A stretch of 64,000 nucleotides of DNA from Nautilus pompilius (lineage: Eukaryota; Mollusca; Cephalopoda; Nautilida; Nautilidae), in NCBI GenBank assembly GCA_018389105.1, contig JACATO010000132.1:3112501-3176500 (forward strand). The letters are read 5' to 3'. Both the position numbers and the translations under genes were made by a program. Within the stretch, counting starts at the first letter, position 1. Each line of letters begins with the position of its first letter. The notes under the pieces are model-generated. The model searched no databases, was not told the origin of the DNA, and saw nothing but the letters and a program-made list of their open reading frames with translations. Shown here piece by piece: positions 18,201 through 50,397 of the stretch.

Positions 18201-21200
18201 TTCGAACCTAGTTTAAAACAAGACCGGTACTTGAAATTTTAACTTTTTTATTTTTAAATATATCTGCATCAAGCATGGTTTGTGTCATCTAAGCATCCAA
18301 CAAATTAATAAATAAAGTGATTTTCTTATTGTAAGGCTTTTTTGGGTGGTGCTTCTTACAACTCCTTGGGTGAAATGAGAGAGAGTATGTACAAAAAAAC
18401 TTAAACTTACCTATACTTTGTTCAGTGATTTAATCACTATAATTCTATGAGAAAATTTTATAATATTTCTAGTAGGTAGATGTATTTCAGATATATTACC
18501 TTGTGATGCCATGTTTCAAGAAGTAAGGCTGCCAATTCATCCCCTCCAGAATCAATGACTTGACATGTTGCAACCTCACCTTATAGGAATGTCCTGACTT
18601 GTTGTGTTCAAGATTTGAGCAAAAAAATACTTAGTATTCCCAGAGATAGAGGCTTTCAGATATTGTTGAGAAAACACACACAGAAAGCTCCATGCTGTTA
18701 CAACTGGTCTTCAGACTTTCTAGCCATTCAGTGTCTCTCAAACAAATCAGGGTGCAAGCTCTCCAAACTTTCTTGGCTTAGTCATTAGCTTTAGATGATT
18801 GAGTTCATCTAATTAGTTCAATGTCCTTCACCTCTGCAAATTCCTTTCCTCCTCTACTGACCCAGGTCACAGTACGGCCATGCCAAACTCAGTAACCAGT
18901 TTACTGCCATCATAAAGATGGTTTCACATCCTCCAATGGTGTATGGTATGTGTAGATTTGTGTACAAAAAACAAACAATCTACTTGAATTTTGTAAAACA
19001 AAAACATTTTCTTAGATGACTTGAGAGTCAAAAGCAGTGACATAATCACAGAAAAGCATTTTTATTGCATGATTGATGTATGGGAAATATTATTTGGGGA
19101 TTGTTTTCAGTTTGACTGTGCCAAAATCAGAAATTATTCTGCCAAAAATTTTGCTTTTGCTCTATGTGAGATATTGTGGAATGCTAGTCTCTCCTTAATT
19201 TCCCAGAACAACAGAACAAGTCTTGTTATTGTAGTGTGTGGAACTAAATTATAAACCCAGCATCCAAAAATAAAACTTGATCAGGATTGCCTTTTTATAA
19301 AATCTCAATTTATTAAATACTTTGGTTCTATTTCAGTCACATTTTTGTTGGGGATGCCTTAAAGAAAGAAAATGGCCATTGTTTTATGTTGTAGTGGGTA
19401 GATGTCATGTCCTAAACACAAATTTATATTCCCATTTCAGTATAATGATTGAGAAAGTAAAATTAATTTCATTTAATATAAACAGTGTTTAGATAATGTT
19501 TTACTGAATGCTGGTAACTTTCACAGAAAACATGCACTCTGTTTTGGAGAGTAACATTTAGTACCAGTGCTTCGTGACTGAACTTTGATCATTGAAAGTA
19601 AAGAGGTATGGAATATTTTTAAATTACACTAAGTGTTTTATATATAAATGCATATGATGATTAATTTTTTTTTTCTGTAGAAAGTCAAAGCATTCTGAAA
19701 TGTTAATACTGCATGTACAGTAAACAGTTTGTTATAAAGTGGAAAAAGGATACTACCTGACAGTTTTGTCTGTTTATATCTATACTTTTACACCCAGTGC
19801 TACAAAATATACATCGTCTAAATATTACCTAGGACAATGTTATTCTAAGTGTTATTATTATATGACCTTAACAAACAGTACAACATAAATTTATTTACTG
19901 TGTATTTTTTTGGCTATAATTTACAGGAGCACAATACTGCAGAAGATTCTGAACTGGATGATGTTTATTATTTGCATAAATTTGATTAAAAAGAAAAGAA
20001 AGTGAATTTAAAATAACTATAACATTGACTTTTTTTTGTATTGTAAAGAAATTTCTGAATGCATTTTTTGTGAATATTATGAACAACAACAAAAATGTAG
20101 TTTCAATTTTCTGATGTTTTTCTTGCTTGCTTTTCTTGTAGAAAAATTATTGTATTTTATATCATTCCTTAATTTAACTCAATTTTTTTTTGTAGGGTGT
20201 GAAATGTTGCAAAACTTTATGTAATTAAAATAAATAAACCATCATCAGTGCTAAACAAAGTGTAGTTCCCATTTCATTTTATGTAAGCTACCTCAGTAAA
20301 CATTTCACATTATATCTTTCTCTTTTTTGCTAGATCATCATTGTCACATCGTTCATACAAGAGAAATATTGACCGTTCCAGTTTTCATCACAAATGCCAG
20401 CATTGTGGGAAATCATTCCAGAAACCTAGTCAGCTAGAAAGGCATGTTAGAATCCACACAGGTATAAGTTGTGATTGTATATAGAGCAGTACATATAATA
20501 AAACTTTGTGGTGCTGTCTCAGATAAATTTTGAATATGTATGCAGATTTAGAAATTAGGAATATCTGAAGTCTTTGCATTCTACATTCTTCAAATTTAAA
20601 AAAAAACCTACTATACACACATGTTACTCTTTTAAAGCATCACAAAAATATGGTTTAAAAATTTTCTTGTCCCTTTTGCTCATGGCAAGTTGACTTCATG
20701 CTAGGCTGATAAATTATGTCAAAGAAAAAATGTTTCTTGAATTTTTAATGGAGTGGATGGTGGCCCAATGGTTATTCAACTGGACTGCCAAGACAGAACC
20801 TGGACTCAAATTTCAGTTGGGGTCAGTTTAGTTTGGCATACCTCCCCGGTTTTGTTTCTTCTTGCTCTTCATCAGCTAGTGGGTTTCCTCCCATGTTTTA
20901 AAATGAACAATTCTAGTAGTGATTTCGGCACCGAAGTTGGAAGTGCCATCTCTCTCAACGGGGTTGTTTCCATGACAGAGATGTTATCTCTGTGCTGAGG
21001 CTGATGATGACACAACAACAACAAATTTTAATGTTGCATGAACATACTGTAAGTTATATCTTTATTCTCTTTATCTTATTGAATAATGGATGTTGAGGAT
21101 TGATGATGAAGTTATAAAATAATAAATTGCATTTTTACAAACTCTTCCAATTACTAAATCACTCCCCATAAAATTAAAAAAAAAAAAAAAAAACTTTTAA

Positions 21201-24200
21201 AGTTTCATTCAAACTGGAGTTTTAAGTTACAGGGACAAGCAAGAGACAAAAATTATTTTTTGATCTGACCTGAAATTTGTTATGCTTTTACATATGGATG
21301 TGTTTCTTTTTTAGGTGAAAGACCCTTTGCATGCCCTATCTGTGATAAATCCTTCAACCAAAAGGGAGCACTTCAGATTCACATGACCAAACACACAGGC
21401 GAACGACCTCATATGTGTGAATTCTGCTCAGCCACCTTCTCACAAAAAGGAAATCTAAGAGCACACATCCAGGTAGACTGCCAATTCTAAAATTGTACAA
21501 GCCTATATTGCATGTTCTGTTTAAGCAAAAAAAATTTGGTTAAATCTTAGCATTATTCTCTTAGAACAGATTGAAATTCCAGTATTTAGCTAAATATTTT
21601 TAACCTTAGGGACATTTTCATGATCATTAACTAATCTTGCTTCTCACACCAGATTAAATTAATGCTGTCATGCATTTTAATTAAACATTTGCTTATTCTT
21701 TGGATATTATAGACAAATTAATCCACTGGTTAATTACATCAGCAACTATCACCTTGTTATAATAAGAAATAGGGAATAACTTATTCATACAAATCCTTTT
21801 TCTGTTTTTTTTAGCGGGTTCATTCTTTAACCAAGGACTCTGACAGCCCTGCCTTTCAATGCGAAGAATGTAGCTGTGTCTTTCGCAAGCTAGGCAGTTT
21901 GAATGCGCACATAAGTCGTGCGCATTCCGAGCCAACGGTAATTATTACCAACTTAACTCTGCAGTCATTAAGAGTCTGTGGTGTTTACAGGTTTTAGCAG
22001 TGAGAGTTCACACCAAACATCACTGGTACTGGAATAAAATCAGCTCCTATCAGGCTTGTGTGGTAGCAGTTAAATTTCATTCCTGAAAAGTGCAACCAAC
22101 TGCTGCTTTCCCCCCCTTTTTTTAGGACTCTGGGAAATTGATTAGAAAATTGAAAAACCGATCAGAGTATTATTCTCATGATTTTAATAGGTTTCCTACT
22201 TAAACAGTTTAACCTCATTCTAGTAACACCCAAAAAAGTCGTACAAATCAAAATCTTCCTTTAAACCCAACATACAGAATTATTATTCTTGATGACCCAG
22301 CAAGGATTTATTGAGGTTATAATGTTTAAAATACTCCAATATTTTACACTACCTCAGAAAAAATAAAAATTATCTAGTTACATAACTGAAACTTGACTGA
22401 CACTAAAAACACTTGAAATGTGTTTTTGTATGGACAGCATACTAATTAGGAAACTGGTTAAAACTAATATCATCTTTGCGGTCATTTCAAGAATTTTCTC
22501 TCTTTTTTTATGTTTGCAATGTACAAATAGAATTAAACATCTTTTAATGTTCATAAAGTAGTCATCATGAATTGATCATTTTCTATCATAGAATTACAGT
22601 AAAAGCTTGTTGCAACATTTTATTAACCAGAAAGCTCTATTAACCAGCATTTCAAAAATTATCATACAGATCACTGATAACCAATAATCATCATCTAGAT
22701 TGACACTATCTGGACAGACCAAAAGCTCTGTAGGCTGAATATTTACTGGGCGTAATTGATGATACTGTCGGTTGTCGTCAGAGTGGTGTTACAGGTTCTC
22801 CTCCTCCATGACCACCATTGGATCTGATTGCAGTAAAAGTTGTTCTGTATTTATTGTGGATTATCAGTGTACCCATTCCACATGGTATAAAATAAACCAT
22901 CAACAAGTAAAGGTGACAAGAGGATGTTGGTGGCATGGTACTAACAATAAATCAGAAGATAGACATATGCAAGAGACTTTTGAAAGGTGAAAATAGGAAT
23001 GCTTTAATGAGGGAAATCAGAAGCTGAGGAATTGTTGTTGAGCTACACCTGCTACCCGTAACACTTTCTCAAGTTGTGATGGCATGCATTGTCAAGACTA
23101 ATTTAGTGCCTCAAGATGTGATATTTTATTATGTGATTTGATCTTCAAAATACTATTATGAACTTTTGAAAATTTGGTGCTAATGTACACTAATCTTTTT
23201 CCATAAGGGAAGCTTAGTCTTAGAACTAATGAACATTGTATATATATGGCAGATCACTTCGTCAGATGTGTAGTCAAGTTGTTAATATACAATTGCTAAA
23301 TGAACCATATGTGTGTGACAAAAGCTGTTTAGTTAAAATTATTTTTTAAAAAATTGATAAAGAAAATTTATCCAGTTTCCAAATTCCATTTGAAATGATT
23401 TAAAGTAATTTCTATTTTTTCCAATTAGAAATGTTTCTCATAAAATTTTTAAAATTTCTACAATATATTAAAAAAAACATTCAAAATGCAATAAGTTCTT
23501 AAAATTAGTGTAATTTTACAAATGCAGAATTGTGAGAATTTTTTAAAAAATTATTTTACGAGTAATAAGTAATACAGGTAAGATGACAGAGATTTTAAAA
23601 AATGCAGGGTTGCCTGTAAGATAATGCTATTTTATCAGCACCAAACTTAATAATTGTTTTTAAGGAATTACCAACACAAGTAGAAGTTCGGCGGGTTACA
23701 GATAATGATAAGAGTCTGAGTGACACAATTCACCAGCTTCTAGAACTCTCTGAACCAGTTCAGCCAGGTACAAAAAATGGCCAGCTGTTGCAGGGAGACC
23801 AGGGTTCTCAAAATTCAAACAGCCAGGTAAGCTCACTTGGATATGGATTCTTGGTATAGTGATGAAAAATATATTATTTATTATTATTTAATGGCCAAGT
23901 TTTGACCATTTGTCATCACTCAGAGAATTAATTTTAATAAGATCATGAAAATGTCTGTACAGAATAACTAAAAAGATAAAAAATAATTTTACATATTTCA
24001 TGATTATCTACATCTACATATTTTCAAAATGGCAGGCCTCTATAAAAGAGTTGGCTGCATTTTTTATTTGTTTGGGTCATTTGATTTGATTAATTTTAGA
24101 TGCAGATGACCAGGCAGCTTCATAATCTTTCTCTCTCTCAAATATCACAGAAAATGTGTTGCTAGAAATTAACAAGTTGTCTTGTTATACCAAACAGCTA

Positions 24201-27200
24201 ACCACTGCCTCTCCCTTACTCATATACTAGGCAGATGCAGTTTCTGCAGCAGCATCAGACATTTTGCAGCAAGCTTTACAAAACAGTGGTCTTCCCAGTG
24301 TAACCATGGCAGGAGGAGAGCAGGGTTCAACATCAGTCACTACAACAACCCCAAGCCAGGCCATAACCATGACTGTCCATGATTCAGCAACAGGGGCAAC
24401 AAAAAAACACATCATTAGAAAGGTTTGTACATGCAAAAATCAAGTTGGTTGTTAGAACAGCACTTTCCTCTCTGGGTGATTTTCTTTTTATGCATAAATG
24501 TTTGTGATGGTCTTGCAATTCAGTCTGAATTTCTTTGTATGCCAAGTCTTTAAAATAAAAAAGATTTAGAAATGTTGATGGCAGCACTGTTGATAATGTG
24601 TGCATATCCAACATTCTCCCTAGATTAATTTTTTGTGTCTGACAAATGCAGCTCAGTACAGATACACAGATACCTGTTTGATTGGCCATGTCAACTTCAT
24701 GAGCTTTAAAAATATACTTTTATTTCTCTCAGTGATCATTAATTTGAAAATATTCATTTCACACATCTAAACTTGAATGATTTATTTCACTGATGTTCCA
24801 TTTTATTCTTGTATGGTCTTTATTGTTATTTTTTAAATGAAAGAGTTAACAAATTATGTAGCCAAACTATTTGTTCAGAGCTTTAAACACATTTTACCTT
24901 ATTTATCTGCCGCAGACCTTGGGCCTGCTGTCTCATATTGTTTTTTTTTAAACATTCTATAACAAAACCATAGGGTCTGAACTCACTTTACCCCTGTCAG
25001 CTGTCAGACTTCCAGTTTTGATAAGAAAGTGTTCTTTGTTGCTTTCACAGAAAGCAACATTTCAAGACTGCATTTATAATTTGTAGTGTTTGTATTTTTT
25101 AGGTAAATGGTGTACGATGGCATCAGTGTACATACTGTACAAAGGAATTTAAAAAGCCCAGTGATCTTGTTAGACACATTCGCATTCATACCCACGAGAA
25201 ACCATATAAGTGTAACCAGTGTTACCGTGCCTTCGCTGTGAAAAGTACTCTTACTGCTCACTTGAAAACACACACTGGAGTTAAAGACTATAAATGCCAT
25301 GTCTGCAGCAAAATGTTCTCCACACACGGAAGCTTAAAGGTCCATTTAAGGCTGCACACAGGTAAGAACTGTAACTAGGCTATCTGTTTCAAAAAGGTAC
25401 CTTCAATAAGTTGGCTCAGAGATTTATTGGACAGTCATCAGCTGAATGCAGCAATGAGAAAATGGTTATCTGTCATAACTATGAGTGAGGAGTGGCGGTG
25501 GTAATCAGCTAGGGAATATACACATTACAAGTGCAGTTTTCTTGCATTTTTCCTGCTTTTTACAGGTCGTTAAGTTTCTTATCTAAATAGTCATGAGGTT
25601 TGAAATGAAAGAAGAGCCATAAAAATGTTCTGGGTGCACCACTATAATCATCTTACTGAGTTTACTTTAGCAGCATCTCACTGCTATATCACCAGTCAAA
25701 ACTTTTGAGCAAGTAAGCTGTCATATTTCTTAAAACAGAGGTTAAAACATTTAGTTTACAGCCATTCTTATCTAAATAAAGTATGAATTTCTGTTTTATG
25801 GAAGTGGCTTTATTTAATTTCACTTGTACAAAGGGAAAATTACCAGAATTCAATCTCATACTGTGGTGAAACTGCTACTGTTTACTGTTTTTGTGTTGTG
25901 TAACAGTCTGCCGAGGCTGTCACCTTCTGGCTGAGCTGTACCATCTGTGCATGCATTTCTCTTTATGTTGATGTGCACCATGAATCCACATCTCATGAAG
26001 GTTTCAGAACTACTCAATTCAGAAAATTCTTGTTGCTTTTATTTTGTATGAGTTGTTATGATTTTGTGAGTTAAAAGCATTTTAAATAAATGGTCTAGGT
26101 GCCCATGTTCCTATGCTGGCCATGGTTGAGGACCTGAGTTGGAATCCTGGTCGGAACTAGCTGTTTGGTGTAGTTTTTTTGCTTTTCTTCACCAGCCAGT
26201 TATGTTGTTAGGGTTTTCCAGGTACATGTGGTGGAGGTAACTCTGGACCGCCTTATGCATTGACCAGCACTCAAAACCCCAACCACATCCACTTCACTTT
26301 TTACCCTTCTAGCTACATGTTGCAAGATATTCTTTGACTTCAAAAGTCATGACTGGTTGCCAAAGAGAAGAAAATAAACAGTTTCTTCAATTTTTTTTTT
26401 TTTTTTCTAAACAGGATTTGCTTGGGAATCAAGACTGGTAAACAGTATTTATTTTTTTCTTTTTTTATATTTTTATTTAGGTGCTAAACCATTTGAGTGT
26501 ACTCACTGTGATAAGAAATTTCGAACTTCTGCACATCAAAAGAGCCACAGTCTATCTCATTTCAAGGATTCTAGTCTGCCTCGAAAGCCCAGGAGAAATT
26601 TTCGGAGATCCTCTAAACCCGACATTCCACTTCCAGATATTCCACTTCAGGAACCAATACTCATAACCGATACAGGTATAGTACTCCATCGTTAGCCTGC
26701 TACTGACCATAACTTAGCTTACTCAGTATTTTCACGTCTCCCTCAGTCTGACAGGTAGTTGAAAGACTATGATATTGTATAATTAAAAAAATCAGAATAT
26801 TTACATGGACCAATCACAAAGTGTACATTTTCTTGTTTTGAAGAATTCTTTTATTTCTTTGAAAACTTTAGTTAAAAGAGGGTGAGTTTTACATGATTTA
26901 GACTAGTGTAGTTGCCTATTCTGGAACTTTCAACCTTTTGCCATTTTCAAATCAAATGTCTTTTATAATCTAGTCCAGGTCTGCCAGCAGGGAAATTTAA
27001 TGATTAGTTCTTAATGTATTTAAAAGACTGCTTTAATGTGATAAAAGAAGGGCTAGTAAAATATATTTAGTTCGCACAAAGCTCCTAAGGTATAAAATTA
27101 TTCTTAAGGTGGTTATATTAATTTTACAAATAGAAAAAAAAAATAATAATTTTTGACTGAAAGCAGTTTGGTCAAAGTTTTTTATTGCCATTTGGTATGC

Positions 27201-39200: not shown

Positions 39201-42200
39201 TCTGAGATTTTTAACCTACAGATGCTTCCAGTATATTTACAATTGATTTTGAAAAAAAGAAACTAGAGAGACAGGAGTGAAATTATGATTGGAGCCAAAA
39301 CAAAACTGCAAAAAGAAGAAAGGTGATGCTGGAAATCTTAGCTCTGAAGGTAGTCAGAGTCCTACAAAGAATTTTTACAGCAGGCATGTTGGTACATAAT
39401 AAAATAACTTTCTCTTGGAGCTTGGCAAACTGAGGGAGATATTCAAATTTTCGTGTGGAATATTTATCATGATTTCCTGTCTGCAGTTGAAATCTGTGCA
39501 GTTTGAAAGTTTGACAGATGATATACTACAGGAGGAGAGAATAGATCATATTTGGCACTTGATCTCTAGACTACAAACACCAGGAGGGCATTTTGAAACA
39601 AATTTCCCAGTCTTCACAGGAATGTGTGTAATACTCACATCAGCGTCTTACAGCAATGCAGATAGAGGATCTTCAGTTTACTTTAGAAAAACAAAACAGA
39701 ATTTGGTCAAATCTGTCAGATGATGATTCGTCATCTATGTTTGTAATCATTTTTAGTGAATGCTGAACAAATAATCTTTTGAACAAGATGCAGATAAAAA
39801 GATATTGCAGAAAGCCAAGTTTTTTTCTTTCTTTGATATATAAAAATGTAGCTACTTTTGTGTATTTATCTGAAAAATTCTCTAATGGAATATGAGTACA
39901 ACTGTCAACACTATTTACATCATGTAGAAGGAGAAATAGTAGTCTTTTGATGTCCTTTCTCCTGTTGGTAAACTAACCAATACAATAGACCTGGTATAAA
40001 CTATACTATCATTCTTTTAACAGAATAGTCATTATACCATGTCTGAAGTCTTTCATGATTAATAAATATCCATACACTTTATCATTATTTATTTATTTGT
40101 GTGCTTTGATTCTTTATAACTTCTTTTGCTCATGTCTTTACAATTAATAGAATTGTATTGTTTTTTATAACTTGAAAACTCTTTACTTTTAGGAGAAAAA
40201 AGGTTTAAATGCCATGTTTGTACTGCACCATTTTCAACTAAAGGAAGTCTCAAAGTTCACATGCGGCTCCACACTGGTGCTAAACCTTTCAAATGTCCAC
40301 ATTGTGACCATCAGTTTAGGACATCAGGACACAGAAAGAGTCACATCCTGTCTCATTTCAAAACAGATGCACCAAAGAAGCGAAAAACACCAAGCAAATC
40401 TGTGGAAAGCCCACAGCCAGTTGTCTTGCTCAATACAACAGAACCCCAGGCTTTGACAACTAATCAAACAAATGTTGCTAATCAAGTGATCAGTATCGAT
40501 CAAAACTTAGTTCAGAACCAGACTAGCTTGATTCCTGTCTCACTGACTGTAAGTGACAACTATGGACAGCTGACAGAAAGTGCCCTGGCTGCTCATGTAC
40601 TACAAGGACTGGAGGGCATCCAGCTGCATCTGACTGGAAACCTGGGGCAAGGCATCCAGATCACAGGGCTTGACCCCAGTGTGTTATCTCAGACCGTCCA
40701 GATTGATGCCAGCCTCTTGCATCAGCTTCAGCAACAAGGGAATGTCAATATCACTATCAACCCAAACATCATCACTCAAACAACTGACCCAGGACTGATG
40801 TCCAGCATTCAAATTCAGCCAGTTGCAGTGCAGGATATTGTCAACCCTAACGTCATTGTACAGCCCATGTCCACCATTGCAGTTGCTCAACCTACTGACC
40901 AGCAGCAGACACTGCAAACTGCTGTTACGATGCAAAGCGGACAGAATGGAGAGCACAACTTTATTGTGACAGCAAGTAATGGAGACTCTAAGGTAGAATA
41001 GATTTCTTATTGTTTCATGTGTTTTATAACGGAGAATATTAATGTAACAGATCCTGTTTTAAAATTATTACTTTACTTTGAAAGAAAAAAATTCCCTTGC
41101 TCGCTCGCTCTCTTTTTTTTTTTTTTTTTTTTTTGTTGCTGGAAATGGTTTAATTCAGCTGGTAAAAAGAGCTCTTTGGTCTGATAGAATTATAACAAAT
41201 GTGGTAGCTGCATTCCAAAACAGTGAGATGGCTTTTTATTGGCACAAATCTGCTTACACTGACTACTGCTTTGATTTTGTTTTGCAGTTTTTAACAACTT
41301 GGAAAATTATACCTCTTAGGTTATTTCAATTTATAGATTTTGATTGCAAAAGGAAATCTTTAGGGAGAGTATCAGGCAAGAACAGCCAGGATCTGAAGTC
41401 AAGCTTGTGTTTAATTATTGAATTTCATATTAACTATCTGTTGTACTGAAGTCCTGACAACTCTTTTACCTTTTTCCACTATGGCTAATATCTTGTTTGC
41501 TTCAGTTAAAATTTGTTTAAAGATTTATCAATGTTAGAAGTAGCATCACTATCAGCAGACATTGATTGGGATCCATTGTGCTGTGTATGTTCAGGTTGCA
41601 GGTGATCCAGTTGGTGAGGTTCAAGACAGTGAGACCACCGGGATAACAGTGGAGAATAGCACACCCCTAGAACAGAACCCGAGTGACAGTTTACCAGAGG
41701 CCAGTGATGATGACCAAGATAGTGATTTAGACCAGGAAAGTGAAAACCTGGTTGCAGTTGCTGAAGGGAACTCAAAGTTTGCTGCTGACCCAGAAAGAAC
41801 TCATGTATGCCAGGTACTCTTTCTTTCTTTTTTTTTGTGACTGCGCTATCTGGAAGATGCTCTCCAATATTTTAATTTGACATATTAAAGATACAAATCC
41901 AAGATGCTGTTTTAGTAATTACTCGGTATGTAATATTATATAGCATTATCAGTTTGTATGTGTTGTTCGTTAAAAGGGTCATTCTGTGAAGGCTGTGTCT
42001 GGAAGCTCTTATCTTTGATTAAAACATGAAAGAACAGAAAAGGGAAATGTCTGGTATCTGCCTGCTGAAAGGTCTCTATTATCTGTAGCAGAACTAAGAA
42101 ACAGAGATAGGGTCTCATATTCGCTAAAATACTTTTATAGTAATTTGTGAACTTATGGAATAGCAGACACAGAAATCCCTATGGGACTTTTCTAATACAA

Positions 42201-45200
42201 GGGATGAAATTGGAAGAAACCCACATGACCAGCTGGTGAAGAAGAGCAGCGTGGGGGTACATGCCAGATTGAGGCTGCTCCAGCTATGAATCAAATCCTG
42301 GGTCTCTGGCTCAGTGGTCCCATTGCTGGGCCACCAGATGCCCCATATTGTATGTTAATCAATGATAATTTTGACAGGTATAAAAACAAGTGCTACTTAA
42401 TTTTTGTTTTTCTCTCTCTTTCTCACTGAATAATTGAGGGAGATGTCCTTTATATTTTTATCCATTTGGGTACTGCCTTTCTAGAGGCCAGTAGATTCTG
42501 AATAAAATTTGTAAGTCAGATTAAAAGGTTTCAAACTTTTCAAATTTACTAAACTAACAAACGTTACTGAAAATTCTGCCTGAAAGCAGACAACATAGAT
42601 TCTGTTTATTATCTTTTTGTAAAACTAAAAAGTATTTGGAGAAATGAATTGCATCTGAAAATGTATGAAGCTTATTTAGGTTCTTACAGAAATTAAATTT
42701 GGTAAGAAAAATCTGGAAAAATAGTAAAGTTATAGCTGCTGTAAGGTAAAGAAAGACTGGTTTGGTGGTGTTTGAGTTAAAAAAAAAAATCTTTACAAAT
42801 CGAATGCAGAAATTAAGGTTTTCTCATTGTTCTATGGCCAGCATAGTTATGTGACCATCTCAGCCAATATTTTCTCTCTCTGCAACCTTTAATGAACAAA
42901 GAGATTCATCAGGTTTATGCCTCTAGATGCATGAAAATTGTTATAAGCTTGGATTTTTTTGTTTGTTTGTTCTTTTGATATGTAATATTTATTATTTTAG
43001 GTTTATTGCTCATGGTTCATTATTTCCCTTTAATTTTCAATTTTTGGAAGTGAAATTTGTGAAACAAAAAGAAATATAAATTTTCAATTTATTCAAAAAG
43101 GGTAGGTATTGCTACTTAGGGAAAGAAACTTTACAAAAACATTTTATTTAAAACTAGTTAAAAACTTAGTTGTTTTTTAAAATGACTAGTTTACTGTTGT
43201 AATCTGAAGGAATTATATTTGGTTTGCAAATAATAGCTATTTGTCACTTGAAGTTTTTAGCATAAATTGCATATGCAGTCTAAAATATCTTTTCTATTTG
43301 GATGGTTTGCTGTGAAGATAAGCTAAGCAAGTTTTTAAAGTTCTATATGGGAAATTTTAAGATAAGTTGATTAACCTAACCATGTTTATAAACCTGGTTG
43401 CCTGTTGTCTTATCTTATGGGACAATGTTTCTTTGGTCTTCATGTTAGGGAGTTTATTAAAAGTTTGGCTAAATCTCAGAGCCATACAGAATTATTCTAT
43501 AAAGACCAAAGAAAAAGGAGAACAAACTAAATGCTTTTCAACAATAACCAGTTCAATAAAGTATGTTCTACAAGAACATATAATTTTTTAAAAAGACTAA
43601 TAATGCTAATCCCACATAATATTTATATGTATATCTGATGCTGAGCTTTCTGTAATGTGAATTGCATGGATATTTTTTATTACTAAAACGGTACAAAGAT
43701 TTGGTGACATATATTTTACATACTTAGAAAATGTTGGCCATTTGTGGAATGTGTGTAACTTTGAAGTAATTAAAACTACACAAGCCTTTTTTCCTGGATG
43801 TGGACAAAACTGTGGGTAATGACAGGAAAATACCTGCCAAGAAAATTTGGTTTGTCTTTATCTTGAATATGATGTGTAGGTGTAGTGGACTCAGTATTTG
43901 TGAAAGGATATTGATTTATTTAGGAAAGTTCAGCATTACTAGAACAAATATACTGAATAAAACAATTAAGAATTATGATTCTTGGACAGAGACAACTCTT
44001 TTCAGCTATCTTTAGTTGCTAATACTAAGGGGTCATAATTACAAATCAGCTGAGATTCCTGAATAACTAGATATCAGAAAGTATTTTTTTAATAACAAGT
44101 CAGACTTCTATGACCAATTTTTATGCTTATATTTAGGGGTCAACTTTTACATGAATAACATTTTTTGAACAGTTGAAAGTGGTGCTTGATTTGGGTCCAC
44201 AAAACATGAAACAAAGACCAAAACAAAAAACCAGAGTGATATCAAATCTAAGCAAAAAAAAAGATTTGTTATATAAGCATAATGAACAAAAATGTTTTTA
44301 ACACTAAACACTCAAAATCCACAAAAATCACTTTGGTCATCATCTGAAGCATGAATAACTTGGCCCAGTTGACTGGCTGAACTTAGTCATATGAATCATT
44401 GTCATCATCAGCTGTGGTTTTATCAATGGTCACATCAGTGTTGTCATTCCAATTCTACAAATAATTGTCTTCTGTACCGTTGAGTGATTTAAGATTCCAG
44501 ATTTCAGAATGATTTAACAACAATATAAGTTTTAGTTCATTCTGAGCATCCACAACCTGCTGACACAATGTCACTAACATCAAGTCCCTTCCTCCACATG
44601 TTGCCTTCCTTGGTGTATGTTTTCTTTCTCTGTAGCCTCAAATTGTTCCACTTCTTTCTGATGCCATCCTTGAAAGGTTTGTTGATGCAGACATCTAATG
44701 GTTGAATCACACCAGTATGACTGCCAGGAACCACTGTGATGTTGGCATTATGCAACTGAACTTTACTGATGACTTCATCTACTAGATAAGATTTAAACAT
44801 GTCCTAGATGAGTAGACTTTTCTTTTGGCTATAAATTCCATATCTCTTTCAGCCATTTATTGCATCTACCTTCATCCATCTATCCTTTTTCATGAACTTG
44901 GACAATTACACCTTTGGAAACTTATTCTCGAGGGCATTTTTTGTTTAAATATCGCCATTGGTTTCAGCTTGGTTCTGTCAGACATACAGGATAGTATCAC
45001 TGTGAATCCTGTCATTTTATGGCCAGTTGTCTTAAGTACCAACCCTGTTCATTGTTCTATTTGCCAGAATGCTGAAGTTCATGGGTGTTTTGTCCATGTT
45101 ATTAATGCAAGCCAGTCTGTAAGTATTCTATTGTCATTATCAAATAAAAAAACAATAGAATTCTATGATCTTGTCATCAAGTTTAGTCAGTAGATGCTGT

Positions 45201-48072
45201 GAAATCTTGGTCTTCTGATAAAGTATGAACCTATGCTTTTTTCATGAACCTGGTGCATCATTTAGTCCTGGCCTTGAAATCTGTGATGCCATCTTTCTTT
45301 GGTTTTTCCAGGCTTGGAGTCAGACAGCTTTGTGGAAAATGACAACTTTCTGCAGCTAGTTGCTTGGTTTTCATGTTAGCACATTTTTTCTTTGGCATCT
45401 TCTCTAGCTTGGAAATTTTTCTCAAATTTCTTCCATCTTCTCTAATACATTGAACTCTCTCAATGTCAATTATTATTTTTTGATGCAGACACTACAACTT
45501 TTAGTTTTGATTATGCAGTATATTTATTATTCTTCCTTGAAGGCATTTTGACAGATTATATGGTCCTTCTGAATTTCAGGGTTATTTATACTAGTACATG
45601 AACCAAACTGTTGTGGTAAGTTTAGCTATTAACACTGGTTTGTCAGTCAGTAAACTATAGGTGGTGCTGCCATTGGCCAAGAATTTGACAAATTTCATTA
45701 CTTCTTGACAACTTAGCATCATAAAATATCCTTAGGATTGTACTTAGGTTCTGAAAGTATTAGGGTGAAAAACTAAGGTTGTCTTTTTTTACATGAGGTA
45801 TATGAAAAATTACAAATTTTAAAATAAAAATTATGGGTGAATTTTATATGGTTATAAATGGTAAGCAAAAATCGCCTTTTTGAAGCATTACTGAAATAAG
45901 CCTAGAGGGTTGGGTAATTTATTGAACACTTTATCTAAGACATTTGGATATCTGATGTGGAAAAGCCACTATAAATTAGAATTTTTACAATGGGCTTTGA
46001 GAAACATTGAAAACAGTTTTAGTGAAAATTTCTATTGGTGTTTTATCCTCACAAAGAAGAAAAAAAATTCTATAAAGTATAAAAGCTTATTTAACACTGA
46101 TATTTTAAATAGATTTTATACTTCTTCCCAGCCTGTTTCTCCAGTGACTAAGAATCATGTTATAAATTTCTTTATATATATTTTTTTTGGATACTGTAAT
46201 ACAATGAAACTTATCAGTAGTTTGCAGTCTGTTATCTGTTTATTTGTTTTTGGAAATTATGAAAGCATTTTTTTTTATTTCTAATATTTTTGACAATTGC
46301 TGCTTTTAAATTATTCAATTGAACAATCTTCTCAGCTGGAATTATACAGAAACATCTGTAATGCACATCTTGGCAGGGTTGAGAGCTAATGAGTGTATTG
46401 TTACATTATGGTGAATGAATCAGTGTTTCTTTTGCAGGCATGTTCTGAAACCAACTCTTAAATTTGTACTTATTACATAAAATGGATAGGAATTAGATAG
46501 GAGTTATTGTAGTTCAACAGTCAAATAATGAATGTGCAAAAATTTGTATACAAAAGTGTTTGTCCAAAAAAAAATATATATAATATAAAACAGCAACATA
46601 TGCTCCATTGTGGCTTTACCTTGGATTTTCGAACTATGAAATTGTATTTCCTTTAATTTTAATCTTTCTCTTTATGTGAAATTTTGTTGTGAGAACATTA
46701 TTCAAGTTGTCATAATTTGTCATAATTTGTCTCCATTAGGTCAACATCGGCTGTCATAAAACGATTTGGTAGCTGCCATAAATTGTAATATATGTTCATT
46801 GTAAAAGAGGAAGACATCTTTGGAAGGAAAATTGATAATTGTGGAGCCTGGACAGACAAACTTGCTACGTAGTTAATGTATGTGCTGAGTTTCTCTTTTA
46901 TCTTTATAGGCAGATTGTTTTAGCATAAAAAAAAAATCTTACCACTGACTTTAACAATGCTTTTGGCAGCATTTGCAACCAGAAAGATGGACAATTTGAA
47001 GTTTTGACTACAATCCTGTAACAATTAGTGTTTGGTAGCTCTAACAAATAAACTATTTTCTGATTTTAGGAGGATGTTACAGGAATGATTACTGTAACCA
47101 TCTTTCTGTTTGTAAAAGCCCATCCTGCATTATTTCTGTTTGGCGCATGTGTTCCCCGAAACACAACAGCCATTGACAGCAGGCATAGTTCTTTCTTTTT
47201 TTTTTTTTGTCTTCTAAGTATGGAAAATGTGCTCAGATTTTGTTAAGCTTTATATTAAATATTTAAAATTTGCAGAGATAATGCTGAAATAATTAGAAAG
47301 ATGACTGTTGACAGGAAATAGCTACCTAGCTTAGTAGTGCTGTTATTCACAAAAATTTTGTAAAGATCTATGCTACACATAATTAAGAGGGACTAGGTAT
47401 TTACTTTCTTAAAGTCTTGCATTAATTACTCAGAATGTGATCAGGACCATCAAACACAAAAAAGATATCCAGATCTATGAGGAGGTTGGAAGAGTTGTCA
47501 TAAAATTTGTGGGTTAGAGGTTTATTTATACAGGTTATAAGAATATCAGAGTTAAAAACCCAAAGGTGTATTACTTTTTCTGTGTTGTTATCATTACTGC
47601 TATTGTTCTTATTTAGAAAAGCATGGAGAGAAATCATAAAAATATTTTGATTATGAGCTAGCTCAGTTGTATTTAAATTTTAAAATCCAACAGCATTGAA
47701 AGTGTTGCCAAAAGAATCAGTTTTGTTCTTTTACAGATACTCCACTGTCACATTAATACTCTTCTTACTTTCAGTATAACTGACTGAAAAAACTGTTTGC
47801 TGTGTATTTTTGATCAACCTCAGATTTTAACCAACTTTCTTTCAGCACTGTGAAGTAAACAATTTTATTTTTTCATTTACCTTGAAAGATACTTCACCAT
47901 TGTTACCATACTTCTACTAAACTTTGTTTTTTCCTGGATGTATATACTGACATTGGGAGACAAGTATCATCTCTACATGTCTACTGCGCTGATTTTGTTT
48001 TCTCCCTTTAAGTATTTAGCTAACAAAATCTCTCTGTTTGTGGTACACTTTCGAAACAACTCTGCTTTATGG

Positions 48073-48108
<36 letters not shown>

Positions 48109-50397
48109 TGGGGTCATCAAATACTATTTTGTTTAAAATTAACATCCACAAACCTTTTCAAGAATATGTGGGAAAACAGCAAATAGAAATGTAATATAGA
48201 GAGTCCTGGGTCACACTTAAGTGGAGCTTCTCTGCCATACGTGATCTACATTGTGTGACTAGCTCAGTTATTTTCCACCCTACTGACACCAAAAAGATCC
48301 TTTGTAGCATTCAAGATATTTGGAGGTTGAGTTTTTTCCACTGTAAAAATGCAATTAAAAAAATTATTTTAAAAAAGTTACTCAATTTGTTTTAACAGCT
48401 CATGCCATAGATTGCATGTGTGCGCGTGTTGTGGGTGAATTCTCTGAACAGCAAGTTATCTAACAGTGCCAAAATTTTGGAACTGGATGAAGATTAAAAA
48501 GTCACATTTTAGTGTAGATATAAATGGATGAATAATGACGTTGAAAATAAATTTAGAATTCACTTTTAAATGTTAGCCATGCAAGAGGGTTGTTTTGCTG
48601 GTACTTTGTTTAAAAGAAAACAAAAAACAAAAACCACCACAGGTTTTGTTGTGAGGGCATTAGCATGGTTGGTAAGTTTTCCCCTGGCAATGTGCTCTCA
48701 GAACTGTTACTTTTATCTGCTGTAGTGTTCAGATCCGTTGGATGGCTATTTTTATCCTCTATACATGTTTTTAAAAGAAACTTACAGTACCACATTGCTA
48801 TGTAATAATTGTTTAAAATTATGTCAAAAATCCTTTTGCATTTTTTCTAAATCTCATAAAATCAGATCATACATGTATAGACAGGTACTAGTTCTGCATT
48901 ATGTACAATTCAAGCTTTTCACATTTTAACTTAGCAAGGGTCAAATACATTTGTTCTCGAGTCTCGGATATCTTAAATGTAACCCGTTTGGCAATATTCA
49001 GATGACTAAGCCTAACTTTTAGCTGGAAAAAATATTCAGTTTCAGAGTTATTGCCATATTGCTTTCTAGAGGAAATGTTGGTAACTGTATAATTTGCCTT
49101 TTTCAGACTATTTACTGATTCAGATCTGATGATGGGTTGAATATATCAGTAAACCTCAGCATCTCTCATATATTTTCACCTGGCAGGATGGTGTTAACTT
49201 AAATCTTTATTCTTCAGTACCTTACTTCACACATCACTAGCACTATCAGCTGAACTAATAAATGATGTGTTTAAACCATTCGATTCAACAAAATTCAAAA
49301 CAGTAAAAAAAAAAAAAAATAAGTATTAGGAATAAAACAATTTTTGTTACAGTATTGCCAGAAGTCCTTCAAACGTTCCAGCCACCTGAAGGAACACCTG
49401 CTCATCCATGCACTAACATCAGTTCCGAAGATTAAAGCTACCCCTCACAAGTGTGACACTTGTGGTAAGGCATTTCAGAAACCTAGCCAGTTAGAGCGGC
49501 ATATTAGAATTCACACAGGTAAGTTAATGATGGTATGCAGAAATATTCAGTGATTTCTACTTTTGCAGGTTTGTGCTAGACTAATAAGAGGCTGCATGCA
49601 TCAATTTGTGAAACATGCTCATATTTTCTCTCAATCCCTGAATAGTTTTTCATAAGATTCTATTAAAGTACTGTGAATTGATAAGAATGAACATGTTAAA
49701 GCATAAAATGTGATAGCTGCTACTGATCCATTTAAGCTATTTATGAGCCTCTTGATAGAAAAGTTAAAGATCTTAAACAGAGACCCTAATCAGAATTTTT
49801 TTCTGTTTTGGCTGCTGCTCTGAAATGTTAACACTGCCACTTTCTCTGATTTTTGGAACACTTTACGCAAAATAATTTTTGTTAATTATCACATGTTTAT
49901 GGAATTAGTGAAGCTGTAGTTAAGGCAGTGACTCTGCACTGTAAAATCATTGCATGGTTATTCAGTTAGCACGCACCAGATTTATGAAGAATAAGAAGTG
50001 GACTTCACATGGAATCCTACAAGAGGCATGCTGACCTTTGTTTGTCAAAAGTTCTGTGGTTTAACTAAGGACAATTTTCTGTTTTCTAGGAGAACGCCCA
50101 TATATTTGTGCGGTTTGTGAAAAGGCATTTAATCAGAAAAATGCGCTGCAGGTGCACCTGAAGAAGCACAGTGGTGAGAAACCGCACAAATGTCCTTATT
50201 GCGAGCTTGCCTTTATCCAGAAAGGGAATCTGAAAACTCATATCAAACGAGCACATCATGTAGAAATGGTCCAGTCAATGAACCTGCCAAGAGCTGTGGT
50301 GCCACCTGCTGGAGCAACTGTTAGTGTCACAACGGAAGGCACTGCTGAGAGTGTCCCTGAAGAAGGACTTGACTTGGAAGATCTTTTTACCAACTGA
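9228..50397 (+). CDS. ZNF236: ZNF236-like protein, 29 C2H2 zinc fingers, 24 coding exons
   Basis: The 24 exons listed separately add to 5,451 bases with matching phases at every junction, giving 1,816 residues. Vertebrate ZNF236 is about 1,845 residues with about 30 C2H2 fingers (from memory). The protein has a short N-terminus, a tandem repeat (about residues 54-170), fingers 1-9 (about 215-490), a linker (about 495-612), fingers 10-13, fingers 14-17, a Gln-rich linker (about 896-1075), fingers 18-21, fingers 22-25, a long polar linker (about 1390-1640) and fingers 26-29, ending in an acidic tail (LDLEDLFTN). Every finger keeps Cx2C and Hx3-4H except for exon splits. It is likely a nuclear DNA-binding regulator; no KRAB, BTB or SCAN domain is seen. 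ATG 9228 was chosen because it follows the leader elements; ATG 9135 is also in frame and would add 31 residues. Confidence 0.9.
9280..13177 (+). other. intron 1
   Basis: It contains the rest of the CpG island (to about 10380) and a mariner-type relic at about 10610-11265 on the minus strand. From 11270 to 13177 it is AT-rich with nothing recognised. Confidence 0.7.
10610..11265 (-). pseudogene. mariner-type transposase relic
   Basis: Read on the minus strand with several frameshifts, it gives [11 protein letters not shown] near 10980 and [21 protein letters not shown] near 10880-10920. These match the TVTGD and QQDGAPPH blocks around the second catalytic Asp of Tc1/mariner-superfamily transposases. 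A GGTGTCCCAAAAAAATGTAT end lies at about 10616. It cannot encode an active protein. Confidence 0.55.
13178..13761 (+). CDS. ZNF236: ZNF236-like exon 2: acidic N-terminus and 13-residue repeats
   Basis: The acceptor is ttttgcag and the donor GTACTA; phase 1 to phase 0. After [19 protein letters not shown] comes the tandem repeat (13285-13635), then a Ser/Ala/Ile-rich segment ending HPPVGK. It has no fingers. Confidence 0.85.
13285..13635 (+). repeat. coding minisatellite: nine 39-bp (13-residue) repeats
   Basis: The unit reads approximately [13 protein letters not shown]. Nine head-to-tail copies are visible, with HAVTQSL the most constant part and positions 1-3 and 11-13 variable (LEDS, LADS, LVHS). 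The array is in frame within exon 2. Similar bases on the opposite strand give a spurious reading frame. Confidence 0.92.
14100..14640 (-). pseudogene. Tc1-like transposase relic
   Basis: The minus strand encodes [16 protein letters not shown] and then [17 protein letters not shown], matching the Tc1 blocks QQDNDPKHT and [16 protein letters not shown] that hold the second Asp and the Glu of the DDE triad. The open part (14140-14388) is only the C-terminal third, and the rest is degraded. It lies in intron 2. Confidence 0.72.
14802..15352. mobile_element. possible non-autonomous pogo/Tigger-type element
   Basis: Imperfect terminal inverted repeats: ACCGTATTACTTCATCTATA at about 14803 and, reversed, ACCATAATTACCTGACCTAT ending near 15352. 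Both arms repeat TATAAC motifs inside. Between them a plus-strand fragment reads [15 protein letters not shown], like the acidic tail of a Tigger-type transposase. This suggests an internal deletion derivative. Confidence 0.4.
15912..16211 (+). CDS. ZNF236: ZNF236-like exon 3: fingers 1-3 and start of 4
   Basis: The acceptor is ttctttag and the donor GTAAGT; phase 0 to 0. It holds fingers [16 protein letters not shown] and CPECGKKF, each with a full C2H2 set. The fourth ([11 protein letters not shown]) is cut after its knuckle. Confidence 0.95.
16212..17947 (+). other. intron 3
   Basis: AT-rich. At about 17000-17330 a sequence starting TACAGCTGTATCCAGAAATG looks like one end of a Tc1-type element without its partner. 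Nothing else was recognised. Confidence 0.4.
17948..18084 (+). CDS. ZNF236: ZNF236-like exon 4: end of finger 4 and finger 5
   Basis: The acceptor is gtacag and the donor GTGAGT; phase 0 to 2. [10 protein letters not shown] completes finger 4. Finger 5 is CRQCTHEF...HMKQH. Confidence 0.92.
18085..20333 (+). other. intron 4
   Basis: AT-rich, 2.2 kb. A less AT-rich block at about 18510-18950 could be an unidentified repeat, but no protein or tRNA-like signature is visible. Confidence 0.5.
20334..20461 (+). CDS. ZNF236: ZNF236-like exon 5: finger 6
   Basis: The acceptor is ttgctag and the donor GTATAA; phase 2 to 1. The basic linker [12 protein letters not shown] is followed by finger 6, [17 protein letters not shown]. 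The exon ends inside the Gly codon of the HTGE linker. Confidence 0.95.
20750..21026 (+). mobile_element. tRNA-derived SINE, family A
   Basis: The head has an A-box-like TGGCCCAATGG and a CTGGACTGCCAAG block. The middle has TTTGGCATACC, CTCTTCATCAGCTAGT and TTCCTCCCATG, and the tail TTCTAGTAGTGATTTC. It ends in a (CAA)n run at about 21011-21024. It lies in intron 5. Confidence 0.7.
21315..21472 (+). CDS. ZNF236: ZNF236-like exon 6: finger 7 and most of finger 8
   Basis: The acceptor is tttttag and the donor GTAGAC; phase 1 to 0. Finger 7 is [17 protein letters not shown]. Finger 8 is [17 protein letters not shown], whose last His is in exon 7. Confidence 0.95.
21815..21937 (+). CDS. ZNF236: ZNF236-like exon 7: end of finger 8 and finger 9
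   Basis: The acceptor is ttttttag and the donor GTAATT; phase 0 to 0. RVH closes finger 8. Finger 9 is [17 protein letters not shown] with an HISRAH end (four-residue His spacing). Confidence 0.93.
21938..23664 (+). other. intron 7
   Basis: AT-rich. CAGTAAAAGCTTGTTGCAAC at about 22604 with nearby TTAACCAG repeats resembles a pogo/Tigger end, but no matching second end is evident. Confidence 0.35.
23665..23826 (+). CDS. ZNF236: ZNF236-like exon 8: linker
   Basis: The acceptor is tttttaag and the donor GTAAGC; phase 0 to 0. It encodes a finger-free polar segment with [17 protein letters not shown], a possible short amphipathic helix, then a Gln/Ser/Asn-rich end. Confidence 0.85.
24231..24422 (+). 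CDS. ZNF236: ZNF236-like exon 9: linker
   Basis: The acceptor is atactag and the donor GTTTGT; phase 0 to 0. [20 protein letters not shown] is followed by a Thr-rich stretch and KKHIIRK. It continues the linker between fingers 9 and 10. Confidence 0.85.
25103..25361 (+). CDS. ZNF236: ZNF236-like exon 10: fingers 10-12
   Basis: The acceptor is tttttag and the donor GTAAGA; phase 0 to 1. Fingers [31 protein letters not shown] and [17 protein letters not shown] start module B. It ends in the HTG linker codon. Confidence 0.96.
25362..26480 (+). other. intron 10 with a degraded SINE
   Basis: At about 26095-26290 (plus strand) there is a family A SINE head: TTGAGGACCTGAGTTGGAAT and CTTTTCTTCACCAGCCAGTT. 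The rest is AT-rich with nothing recognised. Confidence 0.5.
26481..26675 (+). CDS. ZNF236: ZNF236-like exon 11: finger 13 and linker
   Basis: The acceptor is tatttag and the donor GTATAG; phase 1 to 1. Finger 13 is [18 protein letters not shown] basic run ([12 protein letters not shown]) follows, possibly a nuclear localisation signal, then the short repeat [10 protein letters not shown]. Confidence 0.93.
27314..27460 (+). CDS. ZNF236: ZNF236-like exon 12: finger 14
   Basis: The acceptor is tttctcag and the donor GTGAGC; phase 1 to 1. A polar linker leads to finger 14, [17 protein letters not shown], which starts module C. It ends in the HTG linker codon. Confidence 0.96.
27461..29253 (+). 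other. intron 12
   Basis: At about 27950-28065 (minus strand) GTGGCTGGCTGAGTAGTTAA resembles a tRNA A box and may be another SINE head. The remainder is AT-rich with nothing recognised. Confidence 0.4.
29254..29503 (+). CDS. ZNF236: ZNF236-like exon 13: fingers 15-17
   Basis: The acceptor is cttacag and the donor GTTAGT; phase 1 to 2. Fingers [34 protein letters not shown] and [17 protein letters not shown] complete module C. Confidence 0.96.
30001..30289 (+). CDS. ZNF236: ZNF236-like exon 14: glutamine-rich linker
   Basis: The acceptor is catccag and the donor GTGGGT; phase 2 to 0. It encodes AVQQQQQEQ and a long Gln/Asp/Ser-rich, low-complexity segment of the kind found in activation domains. 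No fingers. Confidence 0.9.
31042..31140 (+). CDS. ZNF236: ZNF236-like exon 15: Gln/Ser-rich linker
   Basis: The acceptor is attattag and the donor GTGAGT; a 99-base exon in phase 0 to 0. It encodes [19 protein letters not shown] and a polar end. Removing it keeps the frame, so it could be a cassette exon. Confidence 0.82.
31868..31965 (+). CDS. ZNF236: ZNF236-like exon 16: linker
   Basis: The acceptor is tttaacag and the donor GTCTGT; phase 0 to 2. It encodes [17 protein letters not shown] and a Thr-rich end. The phase match to exon 17 restores Arg. Confidence 0.82.
33173..33321 (+). CDS. ZNF236: ZNF236-like exon 17: finger 18
   Basis: The acceptor is tgttgcag and the donor GTGTGT; phase 2 to 1. 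A Gln-rich lead is followed by finger 18, [17 protein letters not shown], nearly identical to finger 14. It starts module C' and ends at the same HTG codon position as exon 12. Confidence 0.95.
33681..33958 (+). mobile_element. tRNA-derived SINE, family A (best copy)
   Basis: The A box is GGCACAGTGGTTAAG and the B box GAGTTTGATCCCAGG. A TTGGTTTGGCATATC block follows, then a core with TTCCTTCGGGTACTCCGG and a tail with TAGGCAGTGCCTGACCCTCA. It lies in intron 17. Confidence 0.8.
34046..34309 (+). CDS. ZNF236: ZNF236-like exon 18: fingers 19-21
   Basis: The acceptor is ttacacag and the donor GTAAAA; phase 1 to 1. Fingers [34 protein letters not shown] and [17 protein letters not shown] parallel exon 13 finger for finger. 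Confidence 0.96.
34852..35024 (+). CDS. ZNF236: ZNF236-like exon 19: acidic linker
   Basis: The acceptor is ctgtcag and the donor GTTAGT; phase 1 to 0. [20 protein letters not shown] is followed by an acidic run, [15 protein letters not shown]. No fingers. Confidence 0.88.
35536..35734 (+). CDS. ZNF236: ZNF236-like exon 20: fingers 22-23
   Basis: The acceptor is ctttttcag and the donor GTAGTA; phase 0 to 1. [17 protein letters not shown] and [17 protein letters not shown] are close to fingers 10 and 11 and start module B'. Confidence 0.96.
36394..38034 (+). mobile_element. Tc1-like DNA transposon with IR/DR ends
   Basis: The ends are 32-base inverted repeats with two mismatches (CAGCAGTGTGCAAAAGTCTT at the left; CAGTGGTGTGCAAAAGTCTT reversed from the right). 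Each is flanked by TA (36392-36393 and 38035-38036), the Tc1/mariner target. A related motif recurs inside each end (GTGCAAAAGTGTTGCAT at 36597; reversed at about 37813-37832), about 195 bases from the outer copy. That is the IR/DR layout known from Sleeping Beauty-type elements. Confidence 0.9.
36710..37750 (+). pseudogene. Tc1 transposase, inactivated
   Basis: Blocks in order are an N-terminal HTH-like part with [18 protein letters not shown], then FSDESKF (first Asp, about 37178), [11 protein letters not shown] (second Asp, about 37455) and [14 protein letters not shown] (Glu, about 37540-37575). A frameshift after about 36960, a TGA at 37364 and a TAA near 37602 interrupt it. Confidence 0.85.
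38190..39725 (+). pseudogene. hAT-family transposase relic
   Basis: Plus-strand fragments read [18 protein letters not shown] (about 38250), [18 protein letters not shown] (about 38530-38585) and, at 39540-39720, [12 protein letters not shown] with [18 protein letters not shown]. These resemble three conserved blocks of domesticated/ZMYM-like hAT transposases: the AEVKFAxFIxEHNLP entry, the DGASVMxGKxNGV block and the C-terminal SNADxERxFSxxRKxK dimerisation motif. Many stops intervene. Confidence 0.7.
40193..40992 (+). CDS. ZNF236: ZNF236-like exon 21: fingers 24-25 and long linker
   Basis: The acceptor is cttttag and the donor GTAGAA; phase 1 to 0. It is the largest exon (800 bases). Fingers [17 protein letters not shown] and [17 protein letters not shown] close module B'. 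A basic KKRKTPSK follows, then about 190 residues rich in Gln, Thr, Val and Ile with repeated I/V-Q motifs ([21 protein letters not shown]). Confidence 0.95.
41595..41813 (+). CDS. ZNF236: ZNF236-like exon 22: acidic linker and first Cys of finger 26
   Basis: The acceptor is tgttcag and the donor GTACTC; phase 0 to 0. It encodes an acidic stretch ([17 protein letters not shown]). The last codons, HVCQ, supply the first Cys of finger 26. Confidence 0.9.
42211..42345 (-). mobile_element. tRNA-derived SINE, family A head
   Basis: The minus strand reads GGGGCATCTGGTGGCCCAGC at the head, then GGATTTGATTCATAGC (B-box-like) and CTTCTTCACCAGCTGGT. It aligns with the copy at 33681. Confidence 0.65.
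44340..45400 (-). pseudogene. pogo/Tigger-type transposase relic
   Basis: Minus-strand fragments in order are [15 protein letters not shown] (first catalytic Asp block), [19 protein letters not shown], then [23 protein letters not shown] (split here) with KKW, the hallmark PGxTxxxQPLDVxxNKPFK of pogo/TIGD transposases. The acidic tail is near 44390-44480. Stops and frameshifts show it is dead. Confidence 0.82.
48073..48107. repeat. (GT)n microsatellite
   Basis: About 17 uninterrupted GT units in intron 22. Confidence 0.95.
49353..49518 (+). CDS. ZNF236: ZNF236-like exon 23: rest of finger 26 and finger 27
   Basis: The acceptor is tgttacag and the donor GTAAGT; phase 0 to 1. [15 protein letters not shown] completes finger 26. 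Finger 27, [17 protein letters not shown], is nearly the same as finger 6 and ends at the HTG linker codon. Confidence 0.95.
50090..50397 (+). CDS. ZNF236: ZNF236-like exon 24: fingers 28-29 and stop
   Basis: The acceptor is tttctag; phase 1. Fingers [17 protein letters not shown] and [17 protein letters not shown] match fingers 7 and 8. A tail of about 45 residues ends LDLEDLFTN before TGA at 50395-50397. Confidence 0.96.

Follow-up and report, generated by a model that had tools for sequence, protein, structure and literature searches.

Background

Passages of "Expansion of Protein Domain Repeats" (PMC1553488) describe domain repeats that expand from the centre, and state that in C2H2 zinc fingers duplication of a single domain at a time is rare. 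For proteins with many such fingers, an excerpt of PMC11620358 has zebrafish znf236 encoding "nearly 30 copies" of the C2H2 finger, and a table in the excerpted part of PMC5916565 sets C. elegans sem-4 against Sall2 and Zfp236/Znf236. The array described here has 29 fingers, close to the figure in the zebrafish excerpt, though the number of fingers is not enough to define a family. The PMC1553488 passages speak of single C2H2 domains, whereas the duplicated unit here is a whole module; and where those passages have repeats expanding from the centre, the array here appears to have gone through more than one round of expansion, its inner copy diverging on the way, to give three nested levels, which goes beyond the passages.

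Internal duplication of ZNF236 and a mirror-like order of zinc fingers in general were not found in the open-access literature, and may still be published; nor were the finger peptide strings found in its text. Among the matches listed, the finger order of ZNF236 is not a subject of titles or of the beginnings of abstracts, and in the excerpted part of a Daphnia C2H2 survey ZNF236 does not occur (none of the 7 occurrences of "236" is the gene).

The zinc-finger gene

The window (the whole stretch of DNA analysed, 64 kb) holds an intron-rich gene that encodes a long C2H2 zinc-finger protein. The product is putatively ZNF236-like; the likeness compared is one of finger number. A scan with the pattern C-x2-4-C-x12-H-x3-5-H, combined with reading frames, gives 29 C2H2 fingers, all on the + strand, and a stop codon at 50395-50397. 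The pattern itself finds 26 unsplit + strand fingers; the remaining three (fingers 4, 8 and 26) are split by inferred phase-0 introns, exon borders having been placed from splice sites and reading frame. No + strand finger was found 3' of finger 29 by pattern scan within the 64-kb window, and a minus-strand match at 37092 was left out of the set because it lacks the usual core residues. All four of the finger exons submitted to Pfam score above the curated cut-off for PF00096 (C2H2 zinc finger). Within modules the linkers are TGEKP or variants; between modules are spacers, some of which fall in Q-rich or acidic candidate exons. The features are as follows.

15924..17977, + strand: fingers 1-4, which form a degenerate N-terminal module (O); a putative phase-0 intron (16211/17948) interrupts finger 4
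18011..18073, + strand: finger 5, without clear partner (pattern, finger comparison)
20395..21823, + strand: module A, fingers 6, 7 and 8, partners 27-29; a phase-1 intron lies in the linker that follows finger 6, and a phase-0 intron (21472/21815) interrupts finger 8
21860..21925, + strand: finger 9, nearest to finger 8, without mirror partner (finger comparison, bootstrap)
25127..26560, + strand: module B, fingers 10-13, partners 22-25; phase-1 intron after finger 12
27394..29501, + strand: module C, fingers 14-17, partners 18-20, with 17-21 one-way; phase-1 intron after finger 14
33255..34293, + strand: module C', fingers 18-21; a phase-1 intron follows finger 18, placed as in C
35581..40356, + strand: module B', fingers 22-25; a phase-1 intron follows finger 23
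41595..49409, + strand: finger 26; the first half ends a candidate acidic exon, 41595-41813 (...ERTHVCQ), the second half is 49353-49409, and the two are provisionally joined on the basis of splice sites and finger pattern
49452..50256, + strand: module A', fingers 27-29; a phase-1 intron follows finger 27, placed as in A
50257..50397, + strand: C-terminal tail (DLFTN) and stop codon, from the reading frame

Upstream of finger 1, an open frame at 13126-13791 contains a 39-bp tandem repeat (8.9 copies, 13284-13631, +) that encodes nine 13-residue units and draws 5 Pfam matches, all below cut-offs. This frame is possibly an N-terminal exon of the finger gene. Within the array, the string KDYKCHVC lies across the linker of the second and third fingers both in B (25283-25306, +) and in C' (34135-34158, +), where C has KAYKCPIC and B' has EKRFKCHVC; it is a local link of B to the C family.

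Relatives of the modules were sought more widely. One scan for relatives of module C in viral_contigs and one for relatives of module B in genome_contigs each gave 11 pattern matches, 0 confirmed, and no chain named ZNF236 stands among 60 of 127 and 60 of 123 PDB matches of two modules. A general C2H2 scan of the genome from which the window comes (727.6 Mb, 2558 contigs) had 150 of its 2180 candidates scored, and these crowd on few contigs (C573, C22, C2309, C960 and others), as in clustered zinc-finger gene families.

Mirror pairing of fingers and modules

The module order A-B-C-C'-B'-A' is real. Finger similarity was scored over 17 columns, the two Cys and two His being excluded, and by this score the two fingers are each other's best match in 10 of the 11 expected mirror pairs. 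An earlier note on this DNA had read fingers 6, 7 and 8 as recurring in 27, 28 and 29, and fingers 10-13 as recurring in 22-25, and both series return whole (6-27, 7-28 and 8-29; 10-22, 11-23, 12-24 and 13-25). Its third series, 14-17 recurring as 18-21, returns for 14-18, 15-19 and 16-20, but the pair 17-21 is one-way, since 21 picks 17 and 17 picks 16. In 1000 trials with column-shuffled fingers the number of mirror pairs averaged 0.18 and reached at most 3, and the summed pair score, observed at 597, had a null maximum of 258. The further claim, that the block order is mirrored while each block keeps its direction, is right. (A DNA-level inverted duplication is ruled out, with 29 of 29 fingers on the + strand.)

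Position by position, the first, second and third fingers of the modules each give A-A', B-B', C-C' as the best of 15 pairings, and the fourth fingers (B, C, C' and B' only, with A and A' left out) give the mirror pairing as the best of 3. Six modules can be sorted into three pairs in 15 ways, of which full nesting is 1, and so the excess over chance lies in the pairs more than in the order.

A tree of single fingers, which had been expected to group the blocks in mirror fashion, does so in part. In a FastTree bootstrap of 300 replicates the 11 pairs appear 88 to 277 times (8-29 at 88, and 8-9 at 92), while (9,26) appears in 0 and three pairs, (6,27), (11,23) and (16,20), are absent from the single FastTree tree. 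Such modest support may be expected from only 21 columns. At the ends of the mirror the four-finger modules of the earlier reading do not stand: the matched A block is three fingers, and fingers 9 and 26 are not partners. Finger 9 is closest to its neighbour 8, and both 26 and 29 were rejected as its partner (0 and 6 of 300 bootstraps). Finger 26 is closest to 14 and 18, the first fingers of C and C'; the grouping (6,26) appears in 4 of 300.

Proposed growth from the centre

We hold, with a little better than even confidence, that the middle array grew inside-out by repeated duplication of its central module. A module of about four fingers would have undergone tandem duplication; one copy, enclosed by the flanking ones, would have diverged and then been duplicated itself, and the cycle would have been repeated, giving the series A; AA'; A-X-A'; A-B-B'-A'; A-B-Y-B'-A'; A-B-C-C'-B'-A'. 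Outer copies would have kept near the older type while new types formed centrally, and the mirror order would then come of repeated central duplication, no special design being needed. The sequence of these events and the root are both proposed, and each module would be a DNA-binding unit of its own, three or four fingers long and flexibly tethered. If correct, the finger array is a clear worked example of a long array growing from the centre.

All 105 unrooted topologies of the six modules were scored by likelihood in seven runs (LG; LG with finger 9; JTT; codon positions 1+2; all codon positions; core-only LG; core-only WAG). The best topology in every one of the seven is the ladder (A,A')/B'/B/(C,C'). 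Loss-free tandem duplication is compatible with 46 of the 105 topologies, this ladder among them; rooted on A or A', it takes five single-module tandem duplications, all central, and zero losses. The earlier note held that simple tandem duplication does not give a mirror order, which is right only if A-A', B-B' and C-C' are all sisters, and does not apply to the best ladder.

The runner-up, in which B and B' are sisters, is incompatible with loss-free tandem duplication. It is 1.2 to 4.1 log units worse in the seven runs, and the AU test does not reject it (p 0.28 to 0.53). The alternative ladder, with B' adjoining C, is tandem-compatible and 2.2 to 5.1 log units worse (AU p 0.03 to 0.09). Trees breaking A-A' or C-C', among those listed, are all at least 7 log units worse, AU p being above 0.05 in three entries (0.06, 0.08 and 0.14) and below it in the others.

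On the sister tree the outcome of simulation and the AU test disagree: simulation disfavours it, although AU does not reject it. With the real gap mask and 300 simulated sets per tree, a ladder margin at least as large as that observed arises 1 time on the sister tree (0 times for the exact observed ladder) and 212 times on the ladder tree. When linkers are removed, leaving finger cores, the counts are 9 of 300 (5 for the observed ladder) and 204 of 300; without the gap mask, in 100 sets, they are 1 and 69. Such simulation tests are known to be liberal.

Module B is intermediate between A and C. Of the 77 columns without gaps, 26 do not vary, 37 have some pair discordant, and 4 have all three types different; where the pairs are concordant and two types match, A equals B in 4 columns, B equals C in 6, and A equals C in 0. 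Of the columns where B differs from B', 4 match B to C and B' to A, and 1 does the opposite. The fitted ladder has long stems to A-A' (0.89) and C-C' (0.74) and short branches to B and B' (0.14 and 0.09). Two of the three sites with the greatest preference for the ladder fall in linkers; the strongest lies in the B' linker between fingers 23 and 24, whose splice point is putative. Adding fingers 1-4 as a seventh module (945 trees, without AU) yields a best tree that is not tandem-compatible, with a tandem-compatible ladder 0.42 and a B-B'-sister tree 0.79 below it, and rooting with fingers 1-4 is not decisive.

Mirror order is uncommon, yet it is one of the orders that single-module duplication yields. 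In an exact enumeration of random single-module tandem duplication, half of the events changing the type of one copy, full nesting makes up 1.9% of the outcomes with three types in two copies each, and A-A-B-B-C-C makes up 58%; a bias to the centre must therefore be assumed. Growth from the centre also leaves finger 26, C-like and placed between B' and A', without account.

A possible block duplication with loss

The main rival, which we consider possible but unlikely, starts from types A, B and C already present in that order. Tandem duplications of the successive blocks ABC, BC and C, with loss of a terminal BC, would give A-B-C-C'-B'-C''-A'; finger 26 would be the remnant of C'', and the mirror would be the residue of a longer direct repeat. 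A shortest-path search takes ABC to ABCCBCA by three duplications and one deletion, and ABCCBA also takes four events. This history would give finger 26 a place beside 14 and 18, its best matches, which it joins in the best tree of first fingers; however, the grouping with C-type fingers is better by 2.8 log units (KH p 0.17) and has a bootstrap of 51 of 300. It would also keep B and B' as sisters, the arrangement left standing by AU, whereas the preference for the ladder in all seven six-module runs and in simulation argues against it, as does its need for a deletion and for the erosion of one module from four fingers to one.

Linker introns bear on the same choice. In A, A', C and C', but not in B or B', the linker that follows the first finger carries a phase-1 intron; B has its phase-1 intron after the third finger and B' after the second. 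Lack of the first-linker intron in both B and B' costs one extra step on the ladder, a single loss on a B-B' stem being simplest, and under block duplication one such loss would serve both modules. At several of these junctions the linker reads CAC-ACA-G/GT or near it, which is a good splice context, so that repeated intron entry at one place could occur. B and B' also run into similar basic tails after their last fingers (26561-26680 and 40357-40420, both +), a point in favour of block duplication, and the paired B/B' unit may extend past the fingers into these tails.

DNA contacts and possible selection for the layout

Growth from the centre, the history we prefer, predicts that partner modules bind similar DNA. 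Contact residues were taken as those at helix positions -1, 2, 3 and 6 in the customary numbering. Partners have the same residue at 35 of 44 such places, whereas for the remaining non-framework places the figure is 60 of 120 (Fisher p 0.0007, taking the places to be independent). Different types, too, resemble each other more at contact positions (58 of 160 identical) than at others (105 of 432), and the partner excess is therefore partly a general feature of these columns. First-finger contacts are equal in both copies and differ between types (K,S,Q,R in A; K,S,D,R in B; K,S,H,Q in C); other fingers agree less, the fourth of C and C' for example in 1 of 4 residues. From these residues, partners may read similar DNA and the types different DNA. 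The modules would act as tethered, separate DNA-binding units. The suggestion in the earlier note that the two halves contact sites of the same type has some support in the likeness of partner contacts, tempered by the likeness between types. A nested composite DNA site is possible; the results neither support nor imply one.

Selection for the mirror layout itself, with partners kept alike as the halves bind matching DNA sites (for instance two copies of a composite site joined by folding back), seems to us improbable. The excess of identical contacts between partners would be expected of it, but the shared likeness across types dilutes that excess; the kept direction of the modules would make the half-sites direct rather than palindromic; the spacers between modules seem long and flexible; and no ZNF236 binding data are among the literature matches listed. 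It is very doubtful that animals in general share the A-B-C-C-B-A order and that selection maintains it because the two halves clamp, in nested fashion, a composite DNA element present in two copies. Should distant animals share the order, this would date the array and open the protein to module-by-module study.

Age of the duplications

Partner modules are well conserved in protein sequence despite near-saturated synonymous sites, the fourfold-degenerate positions that agree being 1 of 7 for the A pair, 6 of 18 for the B pair and 6 of 19 for the C pair, near the random level. Such saturation suggests that the duplications are old, and that the fingers have probably been under purifying selection. 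Ongoing gene conversion keeping the partners alike would suit their protein similarity, but recent conversion would not leave fourfold sites so diverged, and we reject it as scarcely credible.

One further feature lies inside the array. Between fingers 23 and 24, a minus-strand open frame of 192 residues (37073-37651) has the minus-strand C2H2 match at 37092 at its edge; it has no Pfam match at E 0.01, and our guess is that it is part of a mobile element or antisense to one.
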